Source: Hyphomicrobiales bacterium (GTDB lineage Bacteria; Pseudomonadota; Alphaproteobacteria; Rhizobiales; Methyloligellaceae). Taken from it: a stretch of 38,673 nucleotides of DNA. The DNA lies in the NCBI GenBank assembly GCA_003135455.1, contig PLBV01000012.1, positions 1 to 38,673 on the forward strand, in the 5' to 3' direction. Both the position numbers and the translations under genes were made by a program. The notes beneath the pieces were generated by a model. The model did no database searches. It was not told the DNA's origin and saw nothing but the letters and a program-made list of their open reading frames with translations. This document shows positions 1,554-27,436 of this stretch, in pieces (position 1 is the stretch's first letter; each line of letters opens with the position of its first letter).

Positions 1554-2828
1554 CTAGCTTGCCGGAGGCGGCGCTTTCGCGCGCACCTGCACCTTGCTGC
1601 CGTCGGCGAGGTCGACCGGGGGATTGAGGATCACCTGATCGCCAGCCTTCACGCCGTCTCCAACCTCAACCGATGTCCCGAAATCGCGCGTCACCGTAAC
1701 CTTGCGAAAGTGGGCCGCGCCATTCTCCATGACGGCGACGTGCAGCCCATCGGAATCGAAAACGATGGCATCGGAGGGAATGATAAGGGAAGGCACTTTC
1801 CGCGGGATATGCAGCTCGACCGAGCAATAGACCCCAGGTGACAGCGCCCCATCGGGATTCGGGACGTCGATCTCGGTCAGCAGCGTCCGCGTGCCGGGGT
1901 GCAGAGCGTCGGCGATGCGCGTCACCTTGCCGGGAAAGGTTCGATCCGGGATTTCGGGCACTCGAACGACCGCCTCGACACCTGGGTCTAATCCGAATGC
2001 CTGGTCCTGCGGCACATAGACCTGAATGCGGATGACGTTGCTCTGCATGATGGTGAACATGAAGGTGCCGCTCGTCGCATCGGCCTGCACCAGGCTGCCC
2101 ACATCGATATTGCGCTGGGTGATGACGCCCTCGAAGGGGGCCACGACGCTCTGATAGTCCTTCTGTTGATGCAGCACGGAGAGCTGGGCCTGCTGGGCGG
2201 CGATGTTGGATTGCGCGACGCCGACCCCGGCCTGTTGCGCCTGAAGCCCGAGCCGGTCCACGTCCCCCTGTTGCAGGGTGACCCAGCCCTTGTCGACCAG
2301 CGGCTTGTCGCGTTGCCAGGTCGCGCTCGCCAGATCCGTATTTGCCTGGGTTTGGCGCAAGGAGGCCTCGGTCTGGCCGAGGGTGGCCTCGGCCTGCACG
2401 ATCTGGTGATCGAGCTCGGGCGCGGTGATCTGGGCCAGAAGCTGCCCCTCCTTGACGCGGTCGCCGATGTCGACATTGCGTTTGTCGATATAGCCGCTTG
2501 CGCGCGCGAAGACGTTTGCCTGAGCGAACGCCGAAATCGTGCCGGGCAGGGTGACGAGCATGGTGGCGTCGCTCGCCTTGACCGCGGCAACACTCAGGCT
2601 CGGCACGAAATCGGCTCGCCGCTCGGCGGTGGCCGCAGCCTCGCGATGTTGCGCCTCGTAGCGCCAACCGCCAAAAGCGAGGGCCCCAATGAGCGCCAAG
2701 AGCGCGCCGATTCCGAGCAATCGGCCTCCTGGGCGACGCCGATTGTGCTGCCGATCCTCCGGCGGCGCTTCGGGCAAGGGCTCGACGGCCGGCTTGCGCT
2801 GCCGATCCAACACGACAAATTCGTTCAT
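1554..2828 (-). CDS. RND efflux periplasmic adaptor subunit (MFP/HlyD family)
   Basis: 424 aa; one N-terminal TM; 'ASGYIDKRNVDIGDRVKEGQLLAQITAPELDHQIVQAEATLGQTEASL' lipoyl/hairpin pattern; overlaps the permease stop by 4 bp. Confidence 0.93.
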   Translation of the reverse strand: MNEFVVLDRQRKPAVEPLPEAPPEDRQHNRRRPGGRLLGIGALLALIGALAFGGWRYEAQHREAAATAERRADFVPSLSVAAVKASDATMLVTLPGTISAFAQANVFARASGYIDKRNVDIGDRVKEGQLLAQITAPELDHQIVQAEATLGQTEASLRQTQANTDLASATWQRDKPLVDKGWVTLQQGDVDRLGLQAQQAGVGVAQSNIAAQQAQLSVLHQQKDYQSVVAPFEGVITQRNIDVGSLVQADATSGTFMFTIMQSNVIRIQVYVPQDQAFGLDPGVEAVVRVPEIPDRTFPGKVTRIADALHPGTRTLLTEIDVPNPDGALSPGVYCSVELHIPRKVPSLIIPSDAIVFDSDGLHVAVMENGAAHFRKVTVTRDFGTSVEVGDGVKAGDQVILNPPVDLADGSKVQVRAKAPPPAS

Positions 2829-5800
2829 TCGATGCCCTCCTCGAATACACCATGGGGCGTCTTGTGGTCGTTGCCCTTCCGCAGCATCGCAAAGAGATAG
2901 GGTACGACGAGCAAGGTCGTCGGAGTTGCGAACAAGAGGCCGCCGACGACCGCGCGCGCCAATGCCGCATTCTGCTCTTCGCCCGCGCCGCCGATCGCCA
3001 TCGGCAACATGCCGACGATCATTGCGGCAGCCGTCATCAGCACGGGGCGGATCCTTGTGTGGCCTGCCTCGATGGCGGCCTCGAAGGAGGTCCTGCCGGC
3101 TAGCTGCTGTTCATGGGCAAACGTCACGAGCAGGATAGAGTTCGCCGATGCGACACCAACGGCCATGATTGCCCCCATCAGCGAAGGAACGTTGAGGGTC
3201 GTGCCGGTGACGAACAGCATCACCAGAATGCCGCATAGGGTTGCAGGCAGCGCCAGGATCACGACAAAGGGATCGCCGAAGTTCTGGTAGTTCACCACCA
3301 TCAGGGCGAAAACGAAAACGGCGGCAAACAAGAGTCCGATGCCAAGGTCGCGGAAGCTGTCGTTCATGCTCTGGATCTGACCCACCACCTGGATGGTGTT
3401 GCCGGGGGACAGTTGCGGTGCAAGCTCGGCGACGAGCGTGTTAATGCCCTCGGAGATGCTGCCGAGGTCGCGGCCTTGAACGCTGGCATAGACCTCGTAG
3501 ACCGGCTGGACGTTCGCCTGGTTTCGGTTGGTCGACACGCTGCCGCGGCTAAGCGTTGCCACGTTGCTGAGCAGACCAGGCACCGGGTCCCCGGAGGTAG
3601 ACAGCGCGGTAGAGACCGGCGTGTTGCGAAGATTGTCTAACGAGGCTAACCGAGGCTCCGGCGTCTGCACCGCTATGTAATAGGGGATCCCCGATGCTGG
3701 GTCGGTCCAGAAATTCGGGGCAACCTGCGCTGACGAGCTCAGGCTGACATTGATGTTCGAGGCAATGGCGTTGGCGGTGAGGCCAAGCCCGGCGGCGCGG
3801 GTCCGGTCGATCGTGGCGTAAAGCGCCGGAGCATTGACCTCCTGCTGGAGATGGGCATCGGCGATGCCTGGAATTGCCGCGATGCGCTGCCGCAGCTCCT
3901 TCGCGACACGCAGATTGGTCACCCGGTCGTAACCGACCGTGCGCACGTCTATCTGGGCCGGCAAGCCGAAATTGAGAATCTGGGTGACGATGTCGGCCGC
4001 TTGAAAATAGAAAGTCGTGTCGGGAAATGCGCCGGGGAGCACGTCGCGCAACTTGCGCACGTAGTCGGCCGTCGGCGCGTGACCAGATTTTAGCGCCACC
4101 TGGATGACCCCGTCATTGGGGCCAATGGTCGAGCCGTCGGAGAAGGCGAGATTGTACGCCCGCGCCGGCAGCCCGATATTGTCGACAATGAGTTGACGCT
4201 GGTCCGCAGGGATAATCTCCCTGATCTTGTCCTCGACCGCTTGGAAAATGCGCTCGGTCGTCTCGATCCTTGTGCCGGCCGGGGCGCGGACATGGAGCTG
4301 GATCTGGCCGCCGTCGATGAGCGGAAAGAAGTCGCGGCCGACCAGCATCAGCATCGCAGCCCCAAGCGTCAGCACCAGGACGGCAACGACCGGCACGATG
4401 AGCCGCCGATTGAGCAGCAGCCTCAGTACCTGGACGTAGCCCTCGCGCATATGCTCGAAGCCTCGTTCGAAGCCGGCGTTAAAGCGGCCAAACCAGCTCC
4501 TCGAAGCGGCACCTGGCGTGCCGTGTTTCGCTCCCTTGAGCAAGAGGCCGATGGTGATCGGCGTCAGGGTGCGCGACAGGCTGTAGGAGGCGAGCATGGC
4601 GAACACGACGGCGAGCCCGAGCGGCGTAAACAGGTAGCGTGCCGGTCCCTCGAGAAAGACCACCGAGGTGAACACGCAGCTTATCGCGAGCGTCGAGACG
4701 AGCGTGGGCACGGCGATGCCGGCAGAGCCATGCAGCGTTGCCGCCGGCAGCGGCATGCCTTCTTCGGTGAGCAGCCGCTGGGTGTTCTCGATGGTCACCG
4801 TGGAATCGTCGACCAGGATGCCGACCGCGAGCGCGAGCCCGCCGAGCGTCATGGTATTGAGCGTGTCGCCGAGGAAGTACAGCGCCACCAGCGAGGTCAG
4901 GATCGCCAGCGGAATGGAGATCATCACCACCAGCGTCGACCGCCATGAGCCGAGGAACAGCAGGATCATCAGCGCGGTGAGCGCGCCCGCGATCGCGCCT
5001 TCGCGAACCACGCTCGCGACCGCCGCTTTGACGAACACCGACTGATCGAACAGCTCATTGATGTTGAGGCCAGGCGGCGCTGCGGCGCGGGCGGTCCGCA
5101 GCACATCGCGCACCCCGTTCACGACGTCCAGCGTCGAAGCATTGCCGTTCTTGATGACGCTGAGCAGGACGGAGCGCTTGCCGTCCTGGCGGACGATATT
5201 CTGCTGCACCGCCGAGCCGTCGCGGACCTGTCCGACATCCTTGATGAAGAGGGTCGCGCCATTCGTGTATTTGATCGGGATGCTGTTGAGCTCGGCGATC
5301 GAGGCCGGCGTTGCGTTGGTGCGCACGACGTATTGGGTGTTGCCGATCTTGGCGGCGCCCGATGGCAGCGTCAGGTTCTGGGCATTGACCGCGTTGACGA
5401 CATCAAGGGGCGTGAGACCGCGCGCGAGCAGCTTGGCGGGGTCGAGATCGACCATGATCTGCCGGTATTTGCCGCCGGCAGGCGTGGGAAAGGTGACGCC
5501 GTGCACCGGGGCCAATTGCTGGCGCAGATTATAGATGCCGTAATCGTAGAGCTGCTGCTCGTTGAGATTGTCGGAGGTCAGGCTGAGCTGCAGCACGGGA
5601 ACGGATGAGGCATTGAATTGCACGATGATCGGCGGGTTGATCCCGGGCGGCATGAGCGCGCGAATGGCATTCGTCGCCGAGACGATCTGCGCGATGGCGA
5701 GGTCGAGATTGACGTCCGGCTGGAAGAAGATCTTCTGCACCGAGATGCCATTGAGGGTCTGCGCCTCCATGTCCTTGATGCCGTTGACGTTCGAGCTGAT

Positions 5801-6010
5801 CGAATACTGGCTGTAGGTGGAGACGCGCTGCTCCATCTCCGGCGTTGAGAGGCCGGTGTAGCTCCAGATCACGGTCACCACCGGGATGTTGATCTGCGGA
5901 AAGATGTCGGTCGGCATCACCCGGATCGCGGTGACGCCGAGAAAGACGATGAGCGCGGCCAGCACGTAGAATGTGTGGGGAAACCGCAGCGCGAACCGAA
6001 CGAGTCCCAT
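2825..6010 (-). CDS. RND efflux inner-membrane permease (AcrB/MdtB-like)
   Basis: 1061 aa; 'ALAVGILVDDSTVTIENTQRLL', 'FFPLIDGGQIQLHVRAPAGTRIE' and RND repeat topology. Confidence 0.95.
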   Translation of the reverse strand: MGLVRFALRFPHTFYVLAALIVFLGVTAIRVMPTDIFPQINIPVVTVIWSYTGLSTPEMEQRVSTYSQYSISSNVNGIKDMEAQTLNGISVQKIFFQPDVNLDLAIAQIVSATNAIRALMPPGINPPIIVQFNASSVPVLQLSLTSDNLNEQQLYDYGIYNLRQQLAPVHGVTFPTPAGGKYRQIMVDLDPAKLLARGLTPLDVVNAVNAQNLTLPSGAAKIGNTQYVVRTNATPASIAELNSIPIKYTNGATLFIKDVGQVRDGSAVQQNIVRQDGKRSVLLSVIKNGNASTLDVVNGVRDVLRTARAAAPPGLNINELFDQSVFVKAAVASVVREGAIAGALTALMILLFLGSWRSTLVVMISIPLAILTSLVALYFLGDTLNTMTLGGLALAVGILVDDSTVTIENTQRLLTEEGMPLPAATLHGSAGIAVPTLVSTLAISCVFTSVVFLEGPARYLFTPLGLAVVFAMLASYSLSRTLTPITIGLLLKGAKHGTPGAASRSWFGRFNAGFERGFEHMREGYVQVLRLLLNRRLIVPVVAVLVLTLGAAMLMLVGRDFFPLIDGGQIQLHVRAPAGTRIETTERIFQAVEDKIREIIPADQRQLIVDNIGLPARAYNLAFSDGSTIGPNDGVIQVALKSGHAPTADYVRKLRDVLPGAFPDTTFYFQAADIVTQILNFGLPAQIDVRTVGYDRVTNLRVAKELRQRIAAIPGIADAHLQQEVNAPALYATIDRTRAAGLGLTANAIASNINVSLSSSAQVAPNFWTDPASGIPYYIAVQTPEPRLASLDNLRNTPVSTALSTSGDPVPGLLSNVATLSRGSVSTNRNQANVQPVYEVYASVQGRDLGSISEGINTLVAELAPQLSPGNTIQVVGQIQSMNDSFRDLGIGLLFAAVFVFALMVVNYQNFGDPFVVILALPATLCGILVMLFVTGTTLNVPSLMGAIMAVGVASANSILLVTFAHEQQLAGRTSFEAAIEAGHTRIRPVLMTAAAMIVGMLPMAIGGAGEEQNAALARAVVGGLLFATPTTLLVVPYLFAMLRKGNDHKTPHGVFEEGIE

Positions 6011-9147: not shown

Positions 9148-9382
9148 GACCGCTCTCCGCGTTCCGACACCGGGCCATTGTGATAGGCCGGTCCCATGGG
9201 AGATACTCGCCCGCGCTTGCCGGCCCTGTCGCGAGATTGCTTAAACTGGTCAGCTCCGGTCGCGCGCTTGTTCCGTCCCCACTCATGAGAGCGGGGCACT
9301 TAACGAAGGGACGCGGGCTGGCTTTGGTCCGGCGATTTCGGTGTCCTTTCGGCCCGCAGCAACTGGCGGTACTCTACGCACC

Positions 9383-11572
9383 ATGCAGCATAAGTCGCCT
9401 ATTCAGGACGATGCGGCCTCGCCCCTGCTTGCCGTTGCCGCTGTCGCCTTTGCCGTCGCGATCTTCATCATAGACACCTTCACCCCGCTCGGCATTGCGG
9501 TTGCGGTGCTCTATGTCGTCGTCGTGCTCATGGCCGGCAGCTTCTTCCAGCGGCGCGGTGTGCTGCTCGTGGGTGCGACTTGCGTGGTGCTGACGGCGGT
9601 GAGCTATGTGCTCCAGCATGGGGAGACTTACGGCCCGGCTCTTGTCCGCTGCCTAGTGAGCATTGCGGCGATCGGCATTACCACGTTCCTTGCCCTGAAA
9701 ATCCAATTGGCCGACACGGTATTGCGCGAGCAGGCGGGCCTCTTGGACGTCACCCACGACGCCGTGTTCGTGCGCGACATGAACGATGTCATCACCTACT
9801 GGAATCGCGGCGCGGAGCAGCTTTACGGATGGAAAAAGGAGCAGGCGGTGGGCCAAGTCTCGCACCGGCTCCTGCAGACGGCGTTCCCGGCGCCGCTCGA
9901 AGAGATCAAGGAAGCCGTGCTCGCCACCGGCCGTTGGGGAGGCGAGTTCCTCAACACCAAGCGGGACGGGACGCAGGTCACCGTGGCCGGCCGGTGGTCC
10001 ACGCAGCGCGACGAGCGGGGGGAGCCCGTTGCGACGCTGGAGACCAACAACGACATCACCGAGCGCAAGCGGGCCGAAGCCAAGGCGCAGCAGCAAGACA
10101 AAGAGCTTCAGCTCACCATCGACACCATCCCTGCCATCGTCTTCAGCAATCTGCCCGACGGCTCGACCGATTTCCTGAACGAACGTTGGCTGGATTATAC
10201 GGGTCTTTCTCTGACCGACGCCCAGGGCTTCGGTTGGCAGGCCGCCTACCATCCCGAGGACCTTGTCAGGGTCTTGAAGATGCGGAGCGAGAGCATGGCG
10301 GCGGGCAAGCCGTATGAAGGTGAAACGCGCATCAGAGGGGCTGGCGGAGACTATCGGTGGTTCATGAACCGCGCGGCGCCGCTGCGGGATGAGCACGGAA
10401 CGATCGTCAAATGGTACGGGACGAACACCGATATCGAGGACCGCAAGCGGGCGGGAGACGCGCTCAGTCGGAGCGAAACTTATCTGGCCGAAGCGCAGCG
10501 ACTGAGCCGCACCGGCAGCTTCGGCTGGAATATCAAGAGGGGTGAGATCCTCTGGTCGGAGGAGACCTTCCGCATCTTCAGCTACGATCCGGCGACCCCG
10601 CCCACGCTCGAGATGGTGCTCCAACGAACCCATCCTGAAGATCGGGGCCCGGTCAAACAGCTCCTCGATCGCGTGTCTCAGGATGGGCAGGACTGGGAAC
10701 TTGAGCATCGACTGCTGATGCCGGATGGCGCTGTCAAATATGTGCACGTTGTCGCTCATGCCATGCAAAATGCATCCAACGAGCTCGAATTCGTCGGTGC
10801 GGTGATGGATGTCTCCGCGGCCAAGCAAGCGGAAGCGGAGCTGCACCGGACGCATACCGAGCTCGCGCACGTCACCCGCGTGACCACTCTCGGGGAGCTC
10901 GCGGCCTCGATCGCCCACGAAGTGAACCAGCCGCTCGCCGCCGTGGTCACTAACGCCGATTCCTGTCTGCGTTGGCTCGACCGCGACACGCCGCAGCTCA
11001 AGGAGGCGCGGGATGCCGTGGCGCGCATCATTCGCGACGCCCACCGCGCAGGCGAAGTCATCCGCCGGATTCGCGATCTCGCCATGAAGACGGACCTGCA
11101 GCCGACGCCGCTCGATCTCAACGAGGCCATCCACGACAGCCTGCTCCTGGTGCAGCGCGAGCTGGTCAGGCAGCGGGTGGCGCTGCGGCTGGAGCTTGCG
11201 CCTAAGCTACCGCCGGTGCTTGGTGACCGGGTGCAGCTGCAGCAGGTGATCATCAATCTGGTGATGAACGGCATCGAAGCCATGGCGTCCGTCAACGACC
11301 GGCCGCGCGAGCTTAAGGTCCGCTCGCAAGAGGAGGGCGGCGACCAAGTGCTCGTAGCCGTGCAGGACTCCGGCATCGGTGTCGATCCCGCGCATGTGGA
11401 CCGGCTGTTCGACGCGTTCTTCACCACCAAGCCGGACGGGATGGGCATGGGGCTGTCGATCTGCCGCTCGATCGTCGAGGCGCATGAGGGACGGCTCTCT
11501 GCCTCGCCCAATTCCGGGCCGGGCGCGACGTTTCAATTCACCTTGCCCGCACATCGGGAGGACGTATCGTGA
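9383..11572 (+). CDS. Membrane multi-PAS sensor histidine kinase
   Basis: N-terminal hydrophobic helices; several PAS/PAC units ('NNDITERKRAEAKAQ', 'NTDIEDRKRAGDALSR'); HisKA 'ELAASIAHEVNQPLAAVVTNADSCLRWL'; HATPase 'VQDSGIGVDPAHVDRLFDAFFTTKPDGMGMGLSICRSIVEAHEGRL'. Confidence 0.93.
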   Translation: MQHKSPIQDDAASPLLAVAAVAFAVAIFIIDTFTPLGIAVAVLYVVVVLMAGSFFQRRGVLLVGATCVVLTAVSYVLQHGETYGPALVRCLVSIAAIGITTFLALKIQLADTVLREQAGLLDVTHDAVFVRDMNDVITYWNRGAEQLYGWKKEQAVGQVSHRLLQTAFPAPLEEIKEAVLATGRWGGEFLNTKRDGTQVTVAGRWSTQRDERGEPVATLETNNDITERKRAEAKAQQQDKELQLTIDTIPAIVFSNLPDGSTDFLNERWLDYTGLSLTDAQGFGWQAAYHPEDLVRVLKMRSESMAAGKPYEGETRIRGAGGDYRWFMNRAAPLRDEHGTIVKWYGTNTDIEDRKRAGDALSRSETYLAEAQRLSRTGSFGWNIKRGEILWSEETFRIFSYDPATPPTLEMVLQRTHPEDRGPVKQLLDRVSQDGQDWELEHRLLMPDGAVKYVHVVAHAMQNASNELEFVGAVMDVSAAKQAEAELHRTHTELAHVTRVTTLGELAASIAHEVNQPLAAVVTNADSCLRWLDRDTPQLKEARDAVARIIRDAHRAGEVIRRIRDLAMKTDLQPTPLDLNEAIHDSLLLVQRELVRQRVALRLELAPKLPPVLGDRVQLQQVIINLVMNGIEAMASVNDRPRELKVRSQEEGGDQVLVAVQDSGIGVDPAHVDRLFDAFFTTKPDGMGMGLSICRSIVEAHEGRLSASPNSGPGATFQFTLPAHREDVS

Positions 11573-12225
11573 CCGGGCATACGCCACCGTCCGAGCAGCC
11601 GGTCGTCTTTGTCATCGACGACGATCCGTCATTGCGCGAGGCGCTCAAGAGCCTTTTCCAATCCGTCGGCTTGCGCGTCGAGTTGTTCGGTTCCGCCTCC
11701 GAGTTTATGCAGAGCGCGCTCCCCGATGCTCCAAGCTGCCTCGTTCTCGACATCAGGTTGCCGAGGCTGAGCGGCCTTGATTTTCAAGCCGAACTCGTCA
11801 ACTCGAATATAGAGATGCCGATTATTTTCATTACGGGCCATGGGGATATCCCGATGTCGGTCAGGGCGATGAAGGCCGGAGCCGTCGATTTCCTGACCAA
11901 GCCGTTCCGCGATCAAGATCTGCTCGACGCCGTGGCAAGGGCGATTGAGCGCGACCGCAAGCGCCGAGACGAAGTGAAGGCCGTCTCAAATCTTCGCGCT
12001 CTGTACGGCTCCCTGACCCCCCGAGAGCGAGAGGTGATGACCCTGGTCACCACCGGGCTGATGAACAAGCAGGTCGCCGGAGAAATCGGGGTGAGCGAGA
12101 TCACCGTGAAGATCCACCGTGGCCACCTCATGAGGAAAATGGCCGCGCGATCCTTGGCCGATCTGGTGCGAATGGCCGAGGCGCTCGGGCTTCATCGCCC
12201 CAAGACGTCAACAACAAAAAGCTAG
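11569..12225 (+). CDS. FixJ/NarL-family response regulator (receiver plus LuxR HTH)
   Basis: GTG start overlapping the kinase stop (GTGA). 'VFVIDDDPSLREALKSLFQSVGL', 'CLVLDIRLPRLSGLDFQ', 'FLTKPF', HTH 'LTPREREVMTLVTTGLMNKQVAGEIGVSEITVKIHRGHLMRKM'. Confidence 0.95.
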   Translation: MTGHTPPSEQPVVFVIDDDPSLREALKSLFQSVGLRVELFGSASEFMQSALPDAPSCLVLDIRLPRLSGLDFQAELVNSNIEMPIIFITGHGDIPMSVRAMKAGAVDFLTKPFRDQDLLDAVARAIERDRKRRDEVKAVSNLRALYGSLTPREREVMTLVTTGLMNKQVAGEIGVSEITVKIHRGHLMRKMAARSLADLVRMAEALGLHRPKTSTTKS

Positions 12226-12325
12226 AGCGCTGTCGCGATTGGAACCTGACGCGAAAGCGCGCTAGCATGATCTTAGAAAAGTGGGAACCGGTTTTCCGAA
12301 AAGATCATGCGTCAAGAAAGAGCTA
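12223..12325 (+). repeat. Bimodular palindromic intergenic repeat, copy 1 (module order B-A)
   Basis: 'tagagcgctgtcgcgattggaacctgacgcgaaagcgcgctagcatgatcttagaaaagtgggaaccggttttccgaaaagatcatgcgtc'; begins on the stop codon of the FixJ-type gene. Confidence 0.88.
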
Positions 12326-12440
12326 GCCTGCATATAAACCCATGTATGACTGTTCGAGCAGGCGTTGACGGCGCACTCTCCTCCCTGTGGGCTCGCGCCG
12401 AATGGTGTGGGTCCAGTGTCTGCTGCTGAGGAGAGGCCAG

Positions 12441-12824
12441 GTGCCGAAGGTTCCGGTGATCTCGATCATCGACGATGACGATTCGGTTCGCGCAAGCGTG
12501 GGGTGCCTTGTCAGATCGTTGGGATTGCAGGCGCACACTTTCGCCTCCGCCGAAGAATTCTTGCGGTCGGCTCTCGTCAACGACACGTCCTGTCTGATCG
12601 TCGATGTGCACATGCCGGGGATGAGCGGGCTCGAGCTGCAAACGCTTTCGCTCTCCCAAGGTCGTCGCACGCCGGTGATCTTCATCACCGCCTTTCCCGA
12701 GAAGAGGATCCGATCCGACGCCGTCGCCTTGGGAGCCGTGGGCTTTCTCAGCAAACCCTTCGATGGAGCGGCCCTGATCGAATGCATCGACAGGGCTCTC
12801 GGGCGCCAACGGCCCAAGGCATAG
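12441..12824 (+). CDS. Stand-alone receiver-domain response regulator (FixJ-receiver type, no output domain)
   Basis: 'VPVISIIDDDDSVRASVGCLVRSLGLQAHTFASAEEFL', 'CLIVDVHMPGMSGLEL', 'GFLSKPFDG'. Start taken at GTG 12441; the ORF extends to 12387. Confidence 0.85.
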   Translation: MPKVPVISIIDDDDSVRASVGCLVRSLGLQAHTFASAEEFLRSALVNDTSCLIVDVHMPGMSGLELQTLSLSQGRRTPVIFITAFPEKRIRSDAVALGAVGFLSKPFDGAALIECIDRALGRQRPKA

Positions 12825-14195: not shown

Positions 14196-15218
14196 TCACC
14201 CCCGCAAGCGCGATAGGACCGCCTCGAGCGTGGCGATGGCGTCCGCCCTGTCGTGCTTCTTGAGGTCGAGCAGGAGCTTGAAGCCCTCCTGCTCCTCGCG
14301 GATCACGTTGCCCGCCGCCACCAGGTCATCATAGATGCCGCGAACCTTGTAGCAGCGGACGGGCTCGGCAAAGCCCTTCACCTTGACGGGGGTCTGCTCC
14401 TCGGCCGCCACCTCGTGCTTGACCAGCGAGTAGGTCTCATGACCGAGCACGATGCCGCCGAGATCGGAAACCGACTGGAGCCTGGCCGCCAGATTCACCA
14501 CGTTGCCGATGATGGTGTAGTCCATGCGGTCTTCGCTGCCGAAATTGCCCACGGTGCAGAAGCCCGTATTGATGCCGATGCGGAGCTGGAACGGCCGCTC
14601 GGCGCCCCATTCCTGCCACTCCGACTGCAGCTCGCGCATGCGCTGCTGCATGGCCACGGCCATGCGCACGCCATTGATCGCGTCCTCCCTGACGCCCTTG
14701 GATTCCGGATCGCCGAAAAAGGCGAGGATGGCGTCGCCGATATATTTGTCGATGGTGGCGCCGTATTCGAGCGCGATCTTCGACATCTCGGTGAGATAGC
14801 GGTTGAGCAGGTTGGTGAGCTCTTCGGACTCAAGATTGTCCGTCGTGGCGGTGAAATCGGCGATGTCGGAGAAGAAGACGGTGAGCTTCTTGCGGTTGGA
14901 CGCGATCTCCACGCTTTGCGCGCCGGTGAAGATGGAGTTGTAGATTTGCGGCGAGAGGTATTTCGACAGCTTGGTCGAGAGCGCCTCGAGCTGCTTGTTC
15001 TTCTCCGCGATGACCTCGGCGGCGGCATTGAGCTGCCGCTCGTTGCTGTCGCTGAGGCGCATCAGCCGCCGCGTCATGCGGAACAGCTTCTGGTAGCCCT
15101 TCAGCAGCTGCTCGTAATGCTGCTGGTCTTGGTGACTGCTAAAGCCGCCATCGGCGACCAGCTGCTGGCCCGTGGCGATGACCTGCTCTTCGCCAGCGAA
15201 TAGATCGTCACCCGACAT
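14196..15218 (-). CDS. Class III adenylate/guanylate cyclase, putative output enzyme of a SiaABC-like module
   Basis: Catalytic motifs 'LTVFFSDIADFTATTD', 'IDKYIGDAILAFFGDP', 'IGINTGFCTVGNFGS', 'MDYTIIGNVVNLAARLQ'; N-terminal signalling helix 'YQKLFRMTRRLMRLSDSNERQLNAAAEVIAEKNKQLEALSTKLSKYLSP'. Start overlaps the upstream stop (TGATG). Confidence 0.93.
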   Translation of the reverse strand: MSGDDLFAGEEQVIATGQQLVADGGFSSHQDQQHYEQLLKGYQKLFRMTRRLMRLSDSNERQLNAAAEVIAEKNKQLEALSTKLSKYLSPQIYNSIFTGAQSVEIASNRKKLTVFFSDIADFTATTDNLESEELTNLLNRYLTEMSKIALEYGATIDKYIGDAILAFFGDPESKGVREDAINGVRMAVAMQQRMRELQSEWQEWGAERPFQLRIGINTGFCTVGNFGSEDRMDYTIIGNVVNLAARLQSVSDLGGIVLGHETYSLVKHEVAAEEQTPVKVKGFAEPVRCYKVRGIYDDLVAAGNVIREEQEGFKLLLDLKKHDRADAIATLEAVLSRLRG

Positions 15219-15604
15219 CAGTGCGGCATCTTCTCGAGGTAGAACTTGGCGTTCTCCAGGTCCTCGCCGAATTCCTCGCCAAGCTCCTGCATGGTGTCGT
15301 CTTCCTCGTCATAGAACCAATAGACGTCGACCGCGGCGCCTTTGGCCGCCGCCGCATCGAGCTTGTCCATCAGCATCATGACGGCCTTGGCGCTGCTCGA
15401 ATTGAGATAGATGAGCTCGAAATCGAAGCGGCAGCTGCCGGGCCCAAGCGTCTTGAGATAGGCGTCGAGCGCGGCGAAGACCGGGTTGTAGAATTCCGTC
15501 ACGTCCTCCGGGTAGGACTCGCCGGTGAGCTTCAAATGGTGCTTGGCGAAATCGAAAATTATGGCGGGCGTGCGGGCCGAGGCCGGGATTGCGAGGTTCT
15601 GCAT
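15218..15604 (-). CDS. siaC: SiaC-family (DUF1987) regulatory phosphoprotein
   Basis: 128 aa; 'TPAIIFDFAKHHLKLTGESYPEDVTEFYNPVFAALDAYL...FDFELIYLNSSSAKAVMMLMDKLDAAAAKGAAVDVYWFYDEEDDTMQELGEEFGED', the DUF1987/SiaC pattern. Confidence 0.85.
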   Translation of the reverse strand: MQNLAIPASARTPAIIFDFAKHHLKLTGESYPEDVTEFYNPVFAALDAYLKTLGPGSCRFDFELIYLNSSSAKAVMMLMDKLDAAAAKGAAVDVYWFYDEEDDTMQELGEEFGEDLENAKFYLEKMPH

Positions 15605-15619
15605 CGATCCGACTCTTCT

Positions 15620-16204
15620 TTACACTGAGGCCTTGAGTGTGAAAAAGGCGTACTTGTCGTCGACGTCGGTGAAATCGAACTCGATCGGCTTCGTCGCACG
15701 CCTGGCGATCTCCATGAAGCCGAGGCCGGCTCCCTTGCTGCCTTCCTCGGGGCCGGCCCTGAGCTTCTCCTTGTGCGAGGCGCGCAGCTCCTCCTTGTTC
15801 ATGTCGCGGATCTTGCTGAGCCTCGCCCTTAAGCGCTCCACGTCGGAGCGCTCGACGAGATTGCCGGCATGAACGACGTAATCGTCGCCGTCACGGCCGA
15901 TGGTGAGCACGCCGTAGCGGATCTCGATGAAGGGCGGCTCCAAGGCGCTGTTCGGCACCTTCTCGGCCGAGTAGCGGATCATGTTCTGCATCTGCTCGAC
16001 GAACACGGCGAACACGCTGCGCAGCGTCTTGGTGTCGGCATCGTCGATGGTGAGCTTCTGCTTGATCGCCTCGCCGACGCCGCTCAGCACGGTTTCGGTG
16101 ACGTAGCCGCTATAGGCGAAGATGATCCCCTGCTTGCGCAGGACCTGGCGGATGTCAAACAGCTCCCTCGCCAGCATTGGTGCCTCCCCCCGAAAGCGGG
16201 ACAA
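15620..16204 (-). CDS. siaB: SiaB-family protein kinase (DUF6272, GHKL-like)
   Basis: 'LTIDDADTKTLRSVFAVFVEQMQNMIRYSAE' (N-box-like) and 'GSKGAGLGFMEIARRATKPIEFDF' (G-box-like); sits between phosphatase and SiaC. Alternative start 16177 (MLARELFDIRQ). Confidence 0.82.
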   Translation of the reverse strand: MSRFRGEAPMLARELFDIRQVLRKQGIIFAYSGYVTETVLSGVGEAIKQKLTIDDADTKTLRSVFAVFVEQMQNMIRYSAEKVPNSALEPPFIEIRYGVLTIGRDGDDYVVHAGNLVERSDVERLRARLSKIRDMNKEELRASHKEKLRAGPEEGSKGAGLGFMEIARRATKPIEFDFTDVDDKYAFFTLKASV

Positions 16205-18704
16205 AACCCAACACCGTGAGGTCGTCGCGCCGCATTTGCTGACCCTGATATTTGGCGAAGGTCCGCTTCAACGACTCGGCCTGCTTCTGCATCGGATGTC
16301 CGCGATTGCGCTTCAGCAGGGCATGGAAGCGCCGCTTGCCGAAGGAGCGGCCGCGCGGGCCCCCGATCTGGTCGATGAGCCCGTCGGTGGTGAGATAGAA
16401 GGAGTCGCTGACGTCGAGGGGGAGGGTGTAATCGGTGAACGTCGCCTCTTGCGGATAACGGCGATAGCCGAGCCCCTTGCGGTCGCCCTTGATCTCGATG
16501 ATGCCGTCTTGGCCCGCCTTCCACAGCGAGAAGCGCGCGCCGGCGAAGGTCATCTCCTGCTTTGCGGTGTTGATGAAGCAGATGCCGGCCTCCAGCCCGT
16601 CATCGGTCTCGCCCAACTCCTGGTCCTGGCCGAGCAGGCTTTGCACGCCGCGATGCAGGCCGGTAAGCACCTGGCTCGGATTGCTGCTCGGCGCCCGCGC
16701 CAGCATGCGGTCGAGCATGCCCCAAGCGATCAATGTCATAAAGGCGCCCGGCACGCCGTGGCCGGTGCAGTCGCCGACGATGACGGCATAGCCGTCGCGG
16801 ATCGGCTGGAACCAGAAGAAGTCCCCGCCCACGATGTCGCGCGGCTCCCAGATCAGGAAATGGTCGGCGGTGACCGAGGCGAGCTCTTCGCGCGCCGGCA
16901 GGATGGCGGACTGGATGCGGCTTGCGTAGCGCAAGCTTTGCAAGATCAACAGATTGGCCGCCGCTGCCCGCTGCTCGCTTTCCTTGATGTCGGTGAGGTC
17001 GCTATAGACCGCGACGCTGCCGCCGCTGGCGATGCGGCGCTCGCTGACCTGCAGCCAGCTGCCATCGGAGCGGCGTTCGAGCAGCGGCTCGACCGGGTTT
17101 TTGTGTTGCGCCAGCCGCTGCCTGAGCCAGCCCGAGGCGCGGCCCTTGGCATCCTCGATCAGGCCCCGCTCCACGGCGCTGCGGATGATCTCTTCATAAG
17201 TCGTGCCCGGTTCGGGCGCCCCGGCGCCATGGTCGAATAGCTCGGCGAATTTGTAGTTGCCGAGCACCAGCCGGTCCTCGGTGTCGTAAAGCGAGAAGCC
17301 TTCCGAGATCGCGGCGATGGCATCGTTGAGGCGCTGCTCGCTTGCCTGCAAGGCCGCCTGCTCGGCGGTCTTGCGCGCGGTGACCTCGCTCCACGAGCCC
17401 ACCACCTCGAGCGGATTGCCGTGGCCGTCCTTCATCAGATGCTGCTCGTCGCCCACCCAGCAATAGGTGCCGTCGCTCTTGCGGAAGCGGTACTCGGCGG
17501 TGTGGCGGCCTTCCTCGAACAGCTTCGCCTGCTCGGCCTCCACCGCCTCGATGTCTTCCGGATGCACGCGCGCCCGCCAGAAGTCTGGCTGCTTCAGATA
17601 CTCGTCGGGATCGTAGCCGAGCACGCGCTTGATATTGTCGCTGACGAAGGTGGGCGCATAATCGCCGCTCGCCCGGAAGCTGTAGACCACCGCGGGGGCG
17701 CTGTGCAGCATCAGCGCGAAGCGGGCCTGCGCGGCGCTTTCGGCCGCTTCCGCGTCCTTGCGAGCGGTGATGTTGCTCCAGGATCCCACGATCTCGGCGG
17801 GTTCACCGTCATCGCCGCGCCGCAAATATTGCTCATCGCTGACCCAGATATAGGCGCCGTTCATCTTGCGGAATCGGTACTCAGCCGTATGGCGGCCCTT
17901 GTCAAACAGCTTGGCCTGTTCGGCTTCCACCGCGTGCAGGTCGTCGGGATGAACGTGACTTCGCCAGAAGTCCGCGTGCTCCAGATACTTTTCGGGGCAA
18001 TAGCCGAGCAGCCGCTTGATGTTCTCGCTGACGAAGGTGGGGGCGTAATCGCCGCTCGCCTTGAAGCTGTAGATCACCGCGGGCGCGGTTTCGAGCAGGG
18101 TGGAGAGGCGAGCCCGCGCCGCGTCCTCGGCAGCCTCGGCTTCCTTACGCGCGCTGATGTCGCTCCACGAGCCCACGATCTCGACCGGCTCGCCCTTCTC
18201 GTCGCGGATCACATGCTGGTCGTCATTCACCCAGCAATAGGAGCCGTCCTTGCGGCGAAAGCGATATTCGAGCGCGTGCTTGCCGTTCTTGAAAAGGTCG
18301 GTGACCTCGGCCTCGACGCGCTGAAGATCGTCCGGGTGGACGCGCTCGCGCCAGAAATTCGGATTGTCGAGATATTCGCGCGGACCGTAGCCGAACAGCT
18401 TCTCGATATTGGTGCTGACGAAGGTGGGGGCGTAATCGCCGCTCGCCTTGAAGCTGTAGATCACCGCGGGCGAGGCGCTGAGCAGCTGCGAAAGCCGCTC
18501 GCGCGCGGTGGCTTGCACCTCACCGAGACGCTGGCGCGTTGCCTCTTCCTGCTCGCGTGCTGCCCCGTTCAGCACTTGCTCGATGATATGGGCGACCCCC
18601 GCCAGATCGACGTCGTCAGGGGCAGCGCGCAGCTTCTCTGCCAAGGCGACCGCAGCCGTCTCGGCGCATTGTCTGAGTTCCGTCATGCTCCAATTTTCTA
18701 ACAC
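16155..18704 (-). CDS. siaA: Multi-PAS PP2C/SpoIIE-type serine/threonine phosphatase (SiaA-like)
   Basis: 849 aa; three tandem PAS-PAC units plus a fourth divergent PAS; PP2C motifs 'EPRDIVGGDFFW', 'GDCTGHGVPGAFMT', 'ETDDGLEAG', 'YLTTDGLIDQIGG', 'MRRDDLTVLGF'. Confidence 0.88.
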   Translation of the reverse strand: MLENWSMTELRQCAETAAVALAEKLRAAPDDVDLAGVAHIIEQVLNGAAREQEEATRQRLGEVQATARERLSQLLSASPAVIYSFKASGDYAPTFVSTNIEKLFGYGPREYLDNPNFWRERVHPDDLQRVEAEVTDLFKNGKHALEYRFRRKDGSYCWVNDDQHVIRDEKGEPVEIVGSWSDISARKEAEAAEDAARARLSTLLETAPAVIYSFKASGDYAPTFVSENIKRLLGYCPEKYLEHADFWRSHVHPDDLHAVEAEQAKLFDKGRHTAEYRFRKMNGAYIWVSDEQYLRRGDDGEPAEIVGSWSNITARKDAEAAESAAQARFALMLHSAPAVVYSFRASGDYAPTFVSDNIKRVLGYDPDEYLKQPDFWRARVHPEDIEAVEAEQAKLFEEGRHTAEYRFRKSDGTYCWVGDEQHLMKDGHGNPLEVVGSWSEVTARKTAEQAALQASEQRLNDAIAAISEGFSLYDTEDRLVLGNYKFAELFDHGAGAPEPGTTYEEIIRSAVERGLIEDAKGRASGWLRQRLAQHKNPVEPLLERRSDGSWLQVSERRIASGGSVAVYSDLTDIKESEQRAAAANLLILQSLRYASRIQSAILPAREELASVTADHFLIWEPRDIVGGDFFWFQPIRDGYAVIVGDCTGHGVPGAFMTLIAWGMLDRMLARAPSSNPSQVLTGLHRGVQSLLGQDQELGETDDGLEAGICFINTAKQEMTFAGARFSLWKAGQDGIIEIKGDRKGLGYRRYPQEATFTDYTLPLDVSDSFYLTTDGLIDQIGGPRGRSFGKRRFHALLKRNRGHPMQKQAESLKRTFAKYQGQQMRRDDLTVLGFVPLSGGGTNAGEGAV
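17388..18520 (-). repeat. Three in-register tandem units (387 bp / 129 aa) encoding the PAS-PAC array of the SiaA-like phosphatase
   Basis: Anchor 'ctgacgaaggtgg(g)ggcgtaatcgccgctcgcc' starts at 18415, 18028 and 17641 (each 387 bp apart). Second anchor 'gctcca' at 18162, 17775 and 17388 gives the same 387-bp spacing. Confidence 0.9.
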
Positions 18705-20130: not shown

Positions 20131-22232
20131 CTAAAGAGCGATGGGCCCTCTCGCTGGAAGAGATGCGGCGGGCGCCGTCTGGAGCCACTCGGTGAGATCA
20201 CGCAGCGGGCGCGCCTCGCTATAGAGGAAGCCCTGACCCTCCTCGCAGCCGCGGGCGAGAAGCGCCGCCTTATGCTCCTCGGTGGCGATGCCCTCGGCCG
20301 TCACCGCCATACGGAAATTTTGCCCCAAGGACAGAATGGCCTCCACGATCGCCGCGTCGCCTGGGTTGACCACGAGATTCTGCACGAAACTCCTGTCGAT
20401 CTTGAGCCGCGTCACTGGGAGCTGCTTGAGCATGCTGAGCGAGGCATAGCCCGTGCCGTAGTCGTCCAGCGCGATCCCGACGCCCTGCGCGCGCAGGGAA
20501 TTGAGCACGGCAATGATCGACTTATCGCTGCCGAGGATGACGTTCTCGGTAAGCTCGATCTCCAGCAGCGCAGGCGCGAGGCCGCTGGCGAAAAGGACGC
20601 GCCCGATCGTCTCGGGTAGGCTCCCATTGATCTGGGCCTGGAACAGGTTCACCGCCATGCGCAGCCTAAGGCCTTGCCTGGCAAGCTCGGCGGCTTCCGC
20701 GCAGGCCGTGTCCAACACCCACTCGCCCACGGCCTGCGCGAGCGCGCTCCGCTCCAGCACCGCCAAGAATTCGGCAGGCGCAAGCAGTCCGCGGTCGGGA
20801 TGGCGCCAACGCAAAAGCGCCTCGAAACCGGTGAGCTTGCGATCGACAAGCCTGAGCTGGGGCTGGAAGTGGAGCTCGAATTCGTATCCGTTGAAGGCGC
20901 GCCTGAGCTCGGTCTCCAGCCCCTGCCGCGCCTGCGAGGCCTCGTGCAGGTCGGAAGTGAAGAAACGGCAGGGGTTGCCGCCTTCCTGCTTGGCCTGGTG
21001 AAGGGCGAGATTGGCGTGGGCGATGATGGCTTCGGCCGAGGAGCCATGGATGGGTGCGATGGCGATGCCGATGGACGTGGCCACGAAGACCACGCGGTTG
21101 GCGACCTTGAACGGAGCGGTGAATGCATCCTGGATTTTTTCGGCGAGCTCGGCCACGATCTCTGGCGCCCCCGTCCTCGGCAAGAGGATTGCGAACTCAT
21201 CGCCGCCGAGACTGGCCAAGATATTGCCGTCCCCCGCCGCGGCCACGAGCCGCGCCGCCACCAGCTTCAACAGCTCGTCGCCGGCCGAGGATCCCGCCGT
21301 GTCGTTGAAGGATTGGAAGCCGTCGAGATCGATCATCAGCACCGCGGCAGCGTAGCCGGATTCGATCACTGCCTCCGCGCGCTCGGCCAGCAGCAGACGG
21401 TTCGGCAGCCCGGTCAGCTGGTCGTAATAGGCAAGGTGGAACAGAGCTCCTGCTGCTGGCGCTGGCGGGTGATGTCCTGCAAGGTGCCGAGCACGCGATA
21501 GGGCCTCTGCTCGGCATCTCTTAGCACCTGCGCATAGGCGACCACCCAGCGCTCCGCCCCGGTGTCAGCGCGCCGGATGCGGAACTCCGCGTCGAACTTG
21601 CCGTCATGCTCTGGCCTGAAGGCCTTGTTGCGCAGCGTCGCAAGCGGGGCGCGATCGTCGGGATGCACCAGCCCCCAGAAGGTCTCGTCGCTGATCGGGT
21701 TATCGTCGGCAATGCCAAGCAGCCGATACTTGCCGTCCGACCACCAGGCCCGACCGGAGACCAGGTCGAAGTCCCAGATGGCGAGCTCGGCGGTCTCCAC
21801 CGCGAGCGTCAGCCGCTCCTCGCTCCTGGCCAGGTCCTCCACCGCCGGACGTTGCTCATGCACATCGGTGACGGTGCCCACCCATTCCGACACCGTGCCG
21901 TCGGCGTCCTTGATTGGGATGCCGCGCCCGAGCGCCCAGCGGTAGCCGCCATCGCGCTGGCGGAGGCGAAAGACCGCTTCGAACACTTCGCCCGTTGCAA
22001 GCGCGAGGCGCCAGAGCGGCCCAACCCGCGCTTGATCATCGGGATGCAGGTCGTCGAGCCAGGCGTGGGCCCGCCATTCCTTGGGCCGTCCGGAATGTTC
22101 CGGCCAGCGGCAGGCTTCCAGCGGGGCGCCGTCAGGGGCCGCGCGCTACACCACGGCGTTGGTGGCCTTCGACAGCGCGTGAAAGCGCCGTTGGGCAGCC
22201 AGGTCCTCCAGGTCCCGCAACATCGCTTTCAT
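20131..22232 (-). pseudogene. PAS-PAS-GGDEF-EAL (diguanylate cyclase/phosphodiesterase) gene broken by an amber stop and a frameshift
   Basis: 'MKAMLRDLEDLAAQRRFHALSKATNAVV*RAAPDGAPLEACRWPEHSGRPKEWRAHAWLDDLHPDDQ...' with an in-frame TAG at 22148-22146. 'LGTLQDITRQRQQQEL' runs out of frame near 21446, where the shifted frame continues 'LFHLAYYDQLTGLPNRLLLAERAEAVIESGYAAAVLMIDLDGF...SLGGDEFAILLP...FEALLRWRHP...DDYGTGYASL'. Confidence 0.85.
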
Positions 22233-24274: not shown

Positions 24275-27200
24275 ATGAACATCTCGCATTTCTTCATCGA
24301 CCGGCCGATCTTCGCCGCCGTCATCTCGATCATCATCACCCTGGTCGGCGGCGTCTCCTATTTCGCCCTGCCGGTCGCCCAATATCCTGAGATCGCACCG
24401 CCCTCCATCTCGGTCACCGCGTCCTATCCCGGCGCTTCGGCCGAGACCGTGGCCAAGACCGTGGCGACGCCCCTCGAGCAGGAGATCAACGGCGTCGACA
24501 ACATGCTCTACATGACCTCGCAATCGACGAGCGACGGCAACATGTCGCTCGCCGTGACCTTCAAGCTCGGCACCAACCTCGATACGGCGCAGGTGCTGGT
24601 GCAGAACCGCGTCGCCATCGCTCAACCGCGACTGCCCGATGAGGTGCGTTCGATCGGCGTGACGGTGACCAAGCAATCGCCGGATCTCATGCTGGTGATC
24701 CATCTCCTCTCGCCCGACGGAACCCGCGACCAGCTCTACATCTCCAACTACGCCACGCTGCACGTGAAGGACGTGCTCTCCCGCATCGACGGTGTCGGCA
24801 ACGTGACCATCTTCGGCGCCCGCGACTACTCGATGCGCATTTGGCTAGATCCGGAGAAGCTCGCGGCCCGCAACCTGACCGCGGGCGACGTCGTGGCGGC
24901 GCTCAGAGGGCAGAACGTGCAGGTCGCGGCCGGCGTCATCAATCAGCCGCCGGTGCCCCAGCCTGGCGCCTTCCAGCTCAACGTGGAGACGCAAGGCAGG
25001 CTCACCGACACCGACGCCTTCGGCAACATCATCGTCAAGTCCGACGCCGACGGCCGGGTCGTGCGCGTTCACGACGTGGGCAGGGTGGAGCTGGGCGCGG
25101 CGGATTACAGCCGTAACGGCTATCTGGACCAGACCGTCGCCGTGCCGTTGGGCATCTTCCAGCGGCCGGGCTCGAACGCCCTTGCCACTGCGGCACAAGT
25201 CCAGAAGACCATGGCGGAGCTTTCGAAGTCGTTCCCCTTGGGGCTGCGCTACGACATCGTCTACAACCCCACGGTCTTCATCTCGGAGTCCGTCTCTGCC
25301 GTGATCCACACCATGTTCGAGGCCGTGGTCCTCGTGGTGGTGGTGATCATTCTGTTCTTGCAGACCTGGCGTGCGTCGATCGTGCCCATCGTCGCCATTC
25401 CCGTGTCGCTGATTGGCACTTTCGCCATGCTCGAGGCGCTCGGCTTCTCGCTCAACAACCTCTCTTTGTTCGGCCTGCTGCTCGCCATCGGCATCGTGGT
25501 CGACGACGCCATCGTCGTGGTGGAGAATGTCGAGCGCAATATCCGCGAGGGTTTGAGCCCGCGCGATGCCGCCTACAAGACCATGGAGGAGGTAGGGGGC
25601 GCGCTGATCGCCATTGCGCTCGTGCTCTCAGCCGTATTCATCCCCTCGACCTTCTTGACCGGCATCCTCGGTCAGTTCTTCCGTCAGTTCGCCGTCACCA
25701 TCGCCACCTCGACGGTGATCTCGCTCATCGTCTCGCTCACGCTCAGTCCAGCGTTATGTGCTCTGCTGTTCAAGCCCCACGACCCCAATCCGAAACAGAA
25801 CCTGCTAACCCGGCCAATCAATGCCTTCTTCAAGGGCTTCAACCGCGTCTTCGAATGGCTGTCCCGGAGCTATGGCGGGCTGACCCGGCGCCTGGTGCGG
25901 ATCGCGCTTCTGATGGTGGTGGTCTATGCCGGCCTCATCGGCCTTACCGTCTACCAGTTCATCCAGGCGCCGACGGGCTTCATCCCGCAGCAGGATCAAG
26001 GCTATCTCATCAACATCATCCAGCTGCCGCCGGGAGCCTCGCTCGCCCGCGCCGACGAGGTGACACGGCGCGTGAACAAGCTGGTGCTGGAGACCCCCGG
26101 TGTCGCCCATACCGTTCCGATCGTGGGGCTGGACGGCGCTACCTTCACCAGCGCGCCAAACTCCGCCGTGATTTTCAGCCCTCTCGATCCCTTCGATCAG
26201 CGTGCCGAAAAGGGCCTGAGCGCGCAGAAGATCATCGGGACTCTCAATCAGAAATTCGCCGCGATCCAGGACGCCCTGATCATCAGCATATCACCGCCAC
26301 CGGTCAGAGGCATCGGCACCACCGGTGGCTTCAAGATGGAGGTCCAGGACACCCATGGCGGCGAGCCGGCCGAGCTCGAGGCGGTTACGCAACCCATCGT
26401 GGCGGCAGCCAATCAGACCCCTGGCCTGATGAGCATCTTCACCACCTTCAACACGCGCACGCCGAAGATCTATGCCGACATCGACCGCGTCAGAGCCGAG
26501 ATGCTGGGGGTGAGCACCGACGACGTTTTCACGACCCTCGAAGTGTATCTTGGCTCTCAATATGTCAACGATTTCAATTATTTAGGGCGCACATACCGCG
26601 TGATGGCGCAAGCCGACGGTAAGTTCCGCCAGGACCTGCACGCCATCTCGGAGCTGAAGACGCGCAACGCCAAGGGCGAGATGGTGCCGCTCGGTGCTGT
26701 TGCCTCTTTCCGCGACATCATGGGGCCCTATCGGGTCGAGCATTTCAACCTCTACCCCTCCGCCGCCGTGCAAGGCGGCGTGGCTCCGGGCTATTCGAGT
26801 GGCTATGGCCTCGCCGCCATGGCGAAGCTGGCGCAGCAGCTGCTCCCGGACGGCTACGCCTTCCAATGGACCGAGATCGCCTATCAAGAGCAGCTCGCCG
26901 GCAACACCGCGATCTACGTCTTCATGGCCTCGGTGGTGTTCGTGTTCCTGCTGCTCGCTGCGCAATATGAGAGCTGGGCGCTGCCGCTCGCCGTCATTCT
27001 GATCGTGCCTATGTGCCTGCTCGCTGCCGTCAGCGGCCTCCTCGCCCGTGGCATGGACGTGAACATCCTGGCGCAGATCGGCTTTGTCGTGCTCATAGGT
27101 CTGGCGGCCAAGAACGCCATTCTGATCGTGGAGTTCGCGCGACAGAACGAGGAGCACGGCGAGGATCCCTTCCAGGCTGCCGCCGAGGCCGCGCGCGTGC

Positions 27201-27436
27201 GCTTACGCCCGATCTTGATGACCTCGTTCGCCTTCATCCTCGGCGTGCTGCCGCTGGTGATCGCCACGGGGGCGGGTGCTGAGATGCGCCAGTCGCTCGG
27301 CACAGCCGTGTTCTTCGGCATGCTCGGCGTGACCATCTTCGGGCTGATCTTCACGCCGGTGTTCTACGTGGTGGTGCGCAAATTCGCGGCCAAGCCGCGC
27401 GCCCATCCTTCTACCTACCACGCCCCGGCGGAATAG
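24275..27436 (+). CDS. RND efflux permease, HAE1 family (AcrB/MexF-like)
   Basis: 1053 aa; 'MNISHFFIDRPIFAAVISIIITLVGGVSYFALPVAQYPEIAPPSISVTASYPGASAETVAKTVATPLEQEINGVDNMLYM'; 'GIVVDDAIVVVENVERNI'. Confidence 0.96.
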   Translation: MNISHFFIDRPIFAAVISIIITLVGGVSYFALPVAQYPEIAPPSISVTASYPGASAETVAKTVATPLEQEINGVDNMLYMTSQSTSDGNMSLAVTFKLGTNLDTAQVLVQNRVAIAQPRLPDEVRSIGVTVTKQSPDLMLVIHLLSPDGTRDQLYISNYATLHVKDVLSRIDGVGNVTIFGARDYSMRIWLDPEKLAARNLTAGDVVAALRGQNVQVAAGVINQPPVPQPGAFQLNVETQGRLTDTDAFGNIIVKSDADGRVVRVHDVGRVELGAADYSRNGYLDQTVAVPLGIFQRPGSNALATAAQVQKTMAELSKSFPLGLRYDIVYNPTVFISESVSAVIHTMFEAVVLVVVVIILFLQTWRASIVPIVAIPVSLIGTFAMLEALGFSLNNLSLFGLLLAIGIVVDDAIVVVENVERNIREGLSPRDAAYKTMEEVGGALIAIALVLSAVFIPSTFLTGILGQFFRQFAVTIATSTVISLIVSLTLSPALCALLFKPHDPNPKQNLLTRPINAFFKGFNRVFEWLSRSYGGLTRRLVRIALLMVVVYAGLIGLTVYQFIQAPTGFIPQQDQGYLINIIQLPPGASLARADEVTRRVNKLVLETPGVAHTVPIVGLDGATFTSAPNSAVIFSPLDPFDQRAEKGLSAQKIIGTLNQKFAAIQDALIISISPPPVRGIGTTGGFKMEVQDTHGGEPAELEAVTQPIVAAANQTPGLMSIFTTFNTRTPKIYADIDRVRAEMLGVSTDDVFTTLEVYLGSQYVNDFNYLGRTYRVMAQADGKFRQDLHAISELKTRNAKGEMVPLGAVASFRDIMGPYRVEHFNLYPSAAVQGGVAPGYSSGYGLAAMAKLAQQLLPDGYAFQWTEIAYQEQLAGNTAIYVFMASVVFVFLLLAAQYESWALPLAVILIVPMCLLAAVSGLLARGMDVNILAQIGFVVLIGLAAKNAILIVEFARQNEEHGEDPFQAAAEAARVRLRPILMTSFAFILGVLPLVIATGAGAEMRQSLGTAVFFGMLGVTIFGLIFTPVFYVVVRKFAAKPRAHPSTYHAPAE

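Follow-up and report, generated by a model that had tools for sequence, protein, structure and literature searches.

A SiaABC partner-switch operon with a class III nucleotidyl cyclase as its probable output, and a candidate SiaC-docking stalk common to several enzyme types

The window, the whole 38,673-nucleotide stretch of DNA analysed here, contains a four-gene operon in which genes for a SiaABC partner switch are directly followed by a gene for a class III nucleotidyl cyclase. We hold with good confidence that the output of the switch is an adenylate cyclase, with unphosphorylated SiaC docking on the stalk of the enzyme, activating it and raising cAMP. It also seems likely that SiaC acts generally as a phospho-regulated adaptor and that the stalk, about 75 residues long, is a plug-in carried by five or more unrelated kinds of catalytic domain (GGDEF, class III cyclase, HD-GYP, histidine kinase and PP2C phosphatase). 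One core would then have been rewired time and again for the synthesis or breakdown of different second messengers or as an input to two-component signalling, in some cases with two stalk-bearing outputs per SiaC.

The four same-strand open reading frames lie on the minus strand, exactly at the coordinates (14196–18704) given in the original prediction. The SiaA-like sensor phosphatase (16155–18704, minus strand) consists of three tandem PAS_3 domains 58–66% identical to each other, one PAS_7 domain and a C-terminal SpoIIE/PP2C domain (Pfam E 1.9e-21). The phosphatase domain matches P. aeruginosa SiaA (6k4e; PDB search E 1.8e-57) and the PP2C motif residues D623, D628, D645, D827 and D828 are present. 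The SiaB-like kinase (DUF6272, GHKL-type; 15620–16177, minus strand) matches PF19788 (Pfam E 1.2e-43) and 6kko_A (PDB search E 2.6e-23), and has both the N-box (E70..N74) and GAGLG, numbered from the TTG start. Its start is more likely the ATG at 16177 (185 aa, with GGGGGAGG upstream) than the TTG at 16204, which opens a longer reading frame. The 128-aa SiaC adaptor (PF09345/DUF1987; 15218–15604, minus strand) is encoded 15 bp further on, and its stop shares one base with the start of the 340-aa SiaC-linked cyclase (14196–15218, minus strand) in a TGATG overlap. A genome search finds no second SiaC in the source genome.

SiaC is recognized by both Pfam (PF09345, E 1e-39) and the PDB search (6kko/7e6g, E 1.4e-18), and is 38% identical to P. 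aeruginosa SiaC. Its AlphaFold2 (AF2) model (pLDDT 95) superposes on SiaC of the SiaB–SiaC (6kko_C) and SiaC–SiaD (7e6g_D) complexes with TM scores of 0.91–0.92 (query length, best chains). SiaA, SiaB and SiaC thus all match solved P. aeruginosa proteins, as had been proposed. The phospho-acceptor of P. aeruginosa SiaC is Thr68 (PMC8457831); by alignment and in the AF2 model its counterpart is Ser69 (codon 15398–15400, minus strand), which lies in N-S-S where P. aeruginosa SiaC has N-T-S, and caps the N terminus of helix 2 (69–87). Three features of a SiaABC partner switch are present: a SiaA-type PP2C/SpoIIE phosphatase, a SiaB-type kinase and a SiaC with Ser at the Thr68 position. The catalytic residues of SiaA, SiaB and the cyclase are intact.

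The fourth protein proved to be a class III cyclase, as predicted: it matches PF00211 (Guanylate_cyc, Pfam E 1.5e-26), its catalytic domain (14340–14900, minus strand) is about 54% identical to CyaB (3r5g; PDB search E 4.5e-69), and Foldseek places the AF2 model on 3r5g with a TMt of 0.92–0.93. Pfam finds no GGDEF domain in it. The class III adenylate cyclase residue set is complete, with metal-binding Asp118 and Asp162, base-selecting Lys158 and Asp233, and the transition-state pair N242 and R246. Lys and Asp at the base-selecting positions fit adenylyl specificity; guanylyl enzymes of this class usually have Glu and Cys or Gly there. Guanylyl-active bacterial class III cyclases are known, among them Cya2, itself matched by the window cyclase, and a cGMP product would place this enzyme with them; given that K158 and D233 have the adenylyl form, as in CyaB, we regard this as very unlikely. 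These two residues favour cAMP over cGMP. Ten cNMP-binding proteins score over the cut-off in the source genome and are possible effectors of cAMP.

SiaC occurs in 12 of the 289 genomes of a class sample and in 67 of the 398 of a phylum sample, a few of these matches being weak or incomplete. Gene neighbourhoods were read at 70 loci and at 80 named loci, the latter ranked by similarity to the window SiaC and hence a biased sample. In 33 of these 80 loci, biased as they are towards the window SiaC, a class III cyclase adjoins SiaC, once with SiaB between them. The linkage is found in Methyloceanibacter marginalis, Stappia, Hongsoonwoonella, Ruegeria, Tritonibacter and Microvirga massiliensis, and further in Azospirillum canadense, Granulosicoccus, Magnetococcales, Pseudodesulfovibrio and others. 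It is thus conserved across many genera, in line with the earlier proposal.

The N terminus of the window cyclase is a helical stalk of about 75 residues, with helices 8–23 and 29–84 in the AF2 model. Residues 5–70 (15009–15206, minus strand), delimited with a GGDEF-derived HMM and the AF2 model, form a candidate SiaC-docking stalk. In the register of SiaD R80-I-S82-D83-x-x-Q86, the putative docking motif is R54-L55-S56-D57-S58-N59-E60 (15039–15059, minus strand), inside the predicted continuous helix 29–84; no second RxSD motif was found in residues 1–106. In the SiaC–SiaD crystal structure, SiaC binds the SiaD stalk from R74 to D91, S82 and Q86 bonding to Thr68 (PMC8457831). Of the SiaD residues that contact SiaC in that work, class III stalks keep S82, D83 and R80, with K77 replaced by R and V78 by L; Q86 is Glu (E60) in the window cyclase. 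S56 and D57, like the catalytic residues, do not vary among 26 SiaC-linked class III cyclases. Four of the 26 are only 26–34% identical to the window cyclase, which suggests that the stalk was joined to more than one class III lineage.

Homology of the stalks was assessed with HMMs from which all class III sequences were left out. A GGDEF-only HMM matches the window cyclase with an E of 1.3e-10 (6.5e-13 without Pseudomonas-type sequences). It detects 38 of 39 SiaC-linked class III cyclases, and HMMs made only from histidine kinases or only from HD-GYP proteins detect all 39. Profile–profile comparison (hhalign) of class III stalks with the others gives E values of 3.8e-20 for GGDEF stalks without the Pseudomonas type, 7.5e-20 for kinases and 3.8e-29 for HD-GYP proteins, and the class III and GGDEF stalks align in register at the docking motif. 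Judged by these profiles, the whole cyclase N terminus is homologous between output types. Direct comparison of class III with Pseudomonas-type stalks by hhalign gives a weak match, with an E of 5e-5 over 41 columns and an alignment that is in register at RISDRYQ; class III stalks go undetected by an HMM made from Pseudomonas-type stalks alone, and a class III-only profile does not reach SiaD in the PDB. The non-Pseudomonas GGDEF HMM detects both, and the link between class III and Pseudomonas-type stalks, apart from the weak direct match, is transitive, via other GGDEF stalks, and weaker. General coiled-coil similarity was ruled out as the source of the matches: there were none among 2000 shuffled sequences and about 30 among 6537 background ORFs, and these 30, as far as traced, are stalk proteins from the loci under study or shorter versions of them.

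The stalk is almost confined to SiaC-bearing genomes among the 398 sampled: its profile matches 56 genomes, 54 of which carry SiaC, as 67 of the 398 do (Fisher 1.5e-51). Thirteen SiaC genomes have no stalk match; several of these carry SiaC systems that are partial or of the Pseudomonas type. Class III cyclases occur in 261 of the 398 genomes, as against 56 for the stalk, which is therefore not a general feature of cyclases. Within the source genome the window cyclase is the only match to the stalk profile A4; two other class III cyclases, unlinked to SiaC, are without the stalk. Chance adjacency of SiaC and cyclase was ruled out by conservation and co-occurrence. The operon could also be real and the cyclase merely co-expressed, SiaC having some other target. 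The pairwise mutual information between SiaC and stalk over the crystal contact list, which is not significant (p 0.43; the top four pairs include the interface residues E110, D79 and L107 of SiaC), would fit such an arrangement. However, the docking motif and whole stalk recur in other SiaC-linked outputs and almost never occur in SiaC-less genomes, and the source genome has one SiaC and one stalk protein, which makes a SiaC that does not touch the cyclase highly improbable.

We propose that signals reach the switch through the PAS array, which adjusts how active SiaA is as a phosphatase; SiaA would oppose phosphorylation of SiaC at Ser69 by SiaB. Unphosphorylated SiaC would dock on the R-x-S-D-x-x-E of the cyclase stalk, like SiaC on SiaD, and stabilize a catalytically productive cyclase dimer, with a rise in cAMP; docking of phosphorylated SiaC would be blocked. 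We thus infer that SiaC binds the stalk, that Ser69 is phosphorylated, that the effect is activation and not inhibition, and that the product is cAMP. The main rival to this mechanism concerns the sign of control: SiaC might dock on the stalk but inhibit or sequester the cyclase, its phosphorylation releasing activity. The docking motif does not encode the sign, and the common stalk is carried both by GGDEF synthases and by HD-GYP hydrolases, whose effects are opposed; docking may therefore not always activate. Activation of SiaD starts from a pentamer; to our knowledge, no such state is known for class III cyclases, and the sign of SiaC control could therefore differ. However, dimerization, which class III cyclases require, would be favoured by a stabilized coiled-coil stalk, and in the only case studied, that of the c-di-GMP enzyme SiaD of P. 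aeruginosa, SiaC activates (PMC8457831). Inhibition consequently appears doubtful, and activation by unphosphorylated SiaC is the reading that we prefer.

The original prediction, that the switch probably controls cAMP or cGMP synthesis, with SiaC-type proteins as activators of unrelated cyclase folds, is supported: the proteins match SiaC and SiaB profiles and structures, class III cyclases stay linked to SiaC in many genera, and the window cyclase has the docking motif of SiaD. The proposal was too narrow, as the outputs include HD-GYP proteins, histidine kinases and PP2C phosphatases. The stalk also heads GAF-HD-GYP proteins and HisKA/HATPase kinases, and is found on SpoIIE phosphatases (as an R-I-N/S-D variant), class III-PilZ proteins and one hybrid kinase. 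At some loci, for example L137 and L138, two stalk proteins surround one SiaC. The stalk would thus be a portable module that lineages have moved onto different enzymes while keeping the SiaABC core.

The closest known system is SiaABCD of P. aeruginosa (7E6G, SiaC–SiaD; 6KKO, SiaB–SiaC; 6K4E, SiaA), whose phosphatase, kinase and adaptor are orthologous to those of the window and encoded in the same order, whose output gene directly follows SiaC, and which has an RxSDxx[QE] motif in an N-terminal helical stalk. It differs in that its output, SiaD, is a GGDEF diguanylate cyclase with two tandem docking motifs, whereas the window has a class III cyclase with one; the window SiaC has Ser for Thr at the phospho-site, the window stalk has Glu for Gln86, and SiaA has PAS domains where that of P. 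aeruginosa has a membrane-bound sensor. CyaB (P. aeruginosa, 3R5G) resembles the window cyclase in its catalytic domain and catalytic residues, but the MASE2 domain of the CyaB type was not found by Pfam in the window cyclase, which has the candidate SiaC-docking stalk instead. STAS partner switches act on diguanylate cyclases in HsbA–HsbD and BgrV–BgrR (cited in PMC8457831). There, too, a small phospho-regulated adaptor controls a second-messenger enzyme; the window adaptor, however, is PF09345 (SiaC) and not Pfam STAS, and the output is a class III cyclase.

In the literature searched we found nothing linking SiaC/DUF1987 to class III cyclase, HD-GYP, kinase or PP2C outputs, although Chen et al. 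(EMBO J 2020) may have made an earlier remark, and no statement of a general SiaC adaptor rule; the most that PMC8457831 suggests is that DUF1987 proteins modulate neighbouring proteins. SiaABCD is already known; the class III output and the portable stalk may not have been reported before. The operon would place cAMP synthesis under a partner switch that works through Ser/Thr phosphorylation. More generally, an RxSDxx[QE] stalk beside PF09345 may predict SiaC targets across Proteobacteria and Desulfobacterota, and one adaptor serving many enzymes would be a testable answer to the question, raised in PMC8457831, of the role of DUF1987 elsewhere and the reason for a separate activator. The stalk could also become a phospho-controlled docking tag for engineered enzymes.

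Among assigned loci only, the outputs in the phylum and class samples, which are not biased towards the window SiaC, are GGDEF (22), HD-GYP (15), class III (6) and kinase (5); many further loci of these samples have no assigned output, in part because their contigs end. Stalk residue 86 varies with output type, being Q in most GGDEF proteins and all but one kinase, and E in class III and HD-GYP proteins; SiaCs and stalks may therefore be mutually matched pairs rather than freely exchangeable. On the SiaC tree, the window SiaC belongs to a clade of 21 rows, all class III (SH-aLRT 97). Output type needs 18 changes on this tree, which has few columns and many unresolved forks, and the supported branches alone force at least two changes per type.

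At three loci in other genomes (L120, L122 and L124), the SiaC protein belongs to the same clade of the SiaC tree as that of the window, and the class III domain behind the stalk, the predicted N-terminal SiaC-docking module, is of a different subfamily; at L120 and L122 the identity is only about 30%. The catalytic domain therefore appears to have been exchanged, with the stalk and SiaC retained. At two further loci (L137 and L138), a single SiaC is adjoined by two stalk-bearing enzymes, a class III cyclase and a convergent kinase in Magnetovibrio, and a kinase and an HD-GYP protein in an Azospirillaceae MAG; thus, one adaptor may serve two outputs.

The stalk also heads SpoIIE phosphatases (L223–L229), with the motif RINDRNQ or RISDRNQ. 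The stretch covered around these genes holds no SiaC, but the sampled genomes in which they occur encode one elsewhere. These proteins could be feedback phosphatases or a further output.

In the window, SiaA (16155–18704, minus strand) carries three tandem PAS_3 domains. These share 58–66% pairwise identity and look like a recent amplification, inside the gene, of its sensory portion. A GGDEF-EAL gene (20131–21369), also on the minus strand, lies some 1.4 kb upstream of SiaA, with a cupin gene on the opposite strand between the two. Convergent with the cyclase operon, consecutive genes (9341–12824, plus strand) encode a PAS histidine kinase, a FixJ-like response regulator and a single-domain receiver. 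The region is flanked on one side by an AcrB-type RND transporter gene at 2825–6010 (minus strand) and on the other by a second, separate one at 24275–27436 (plus strand).
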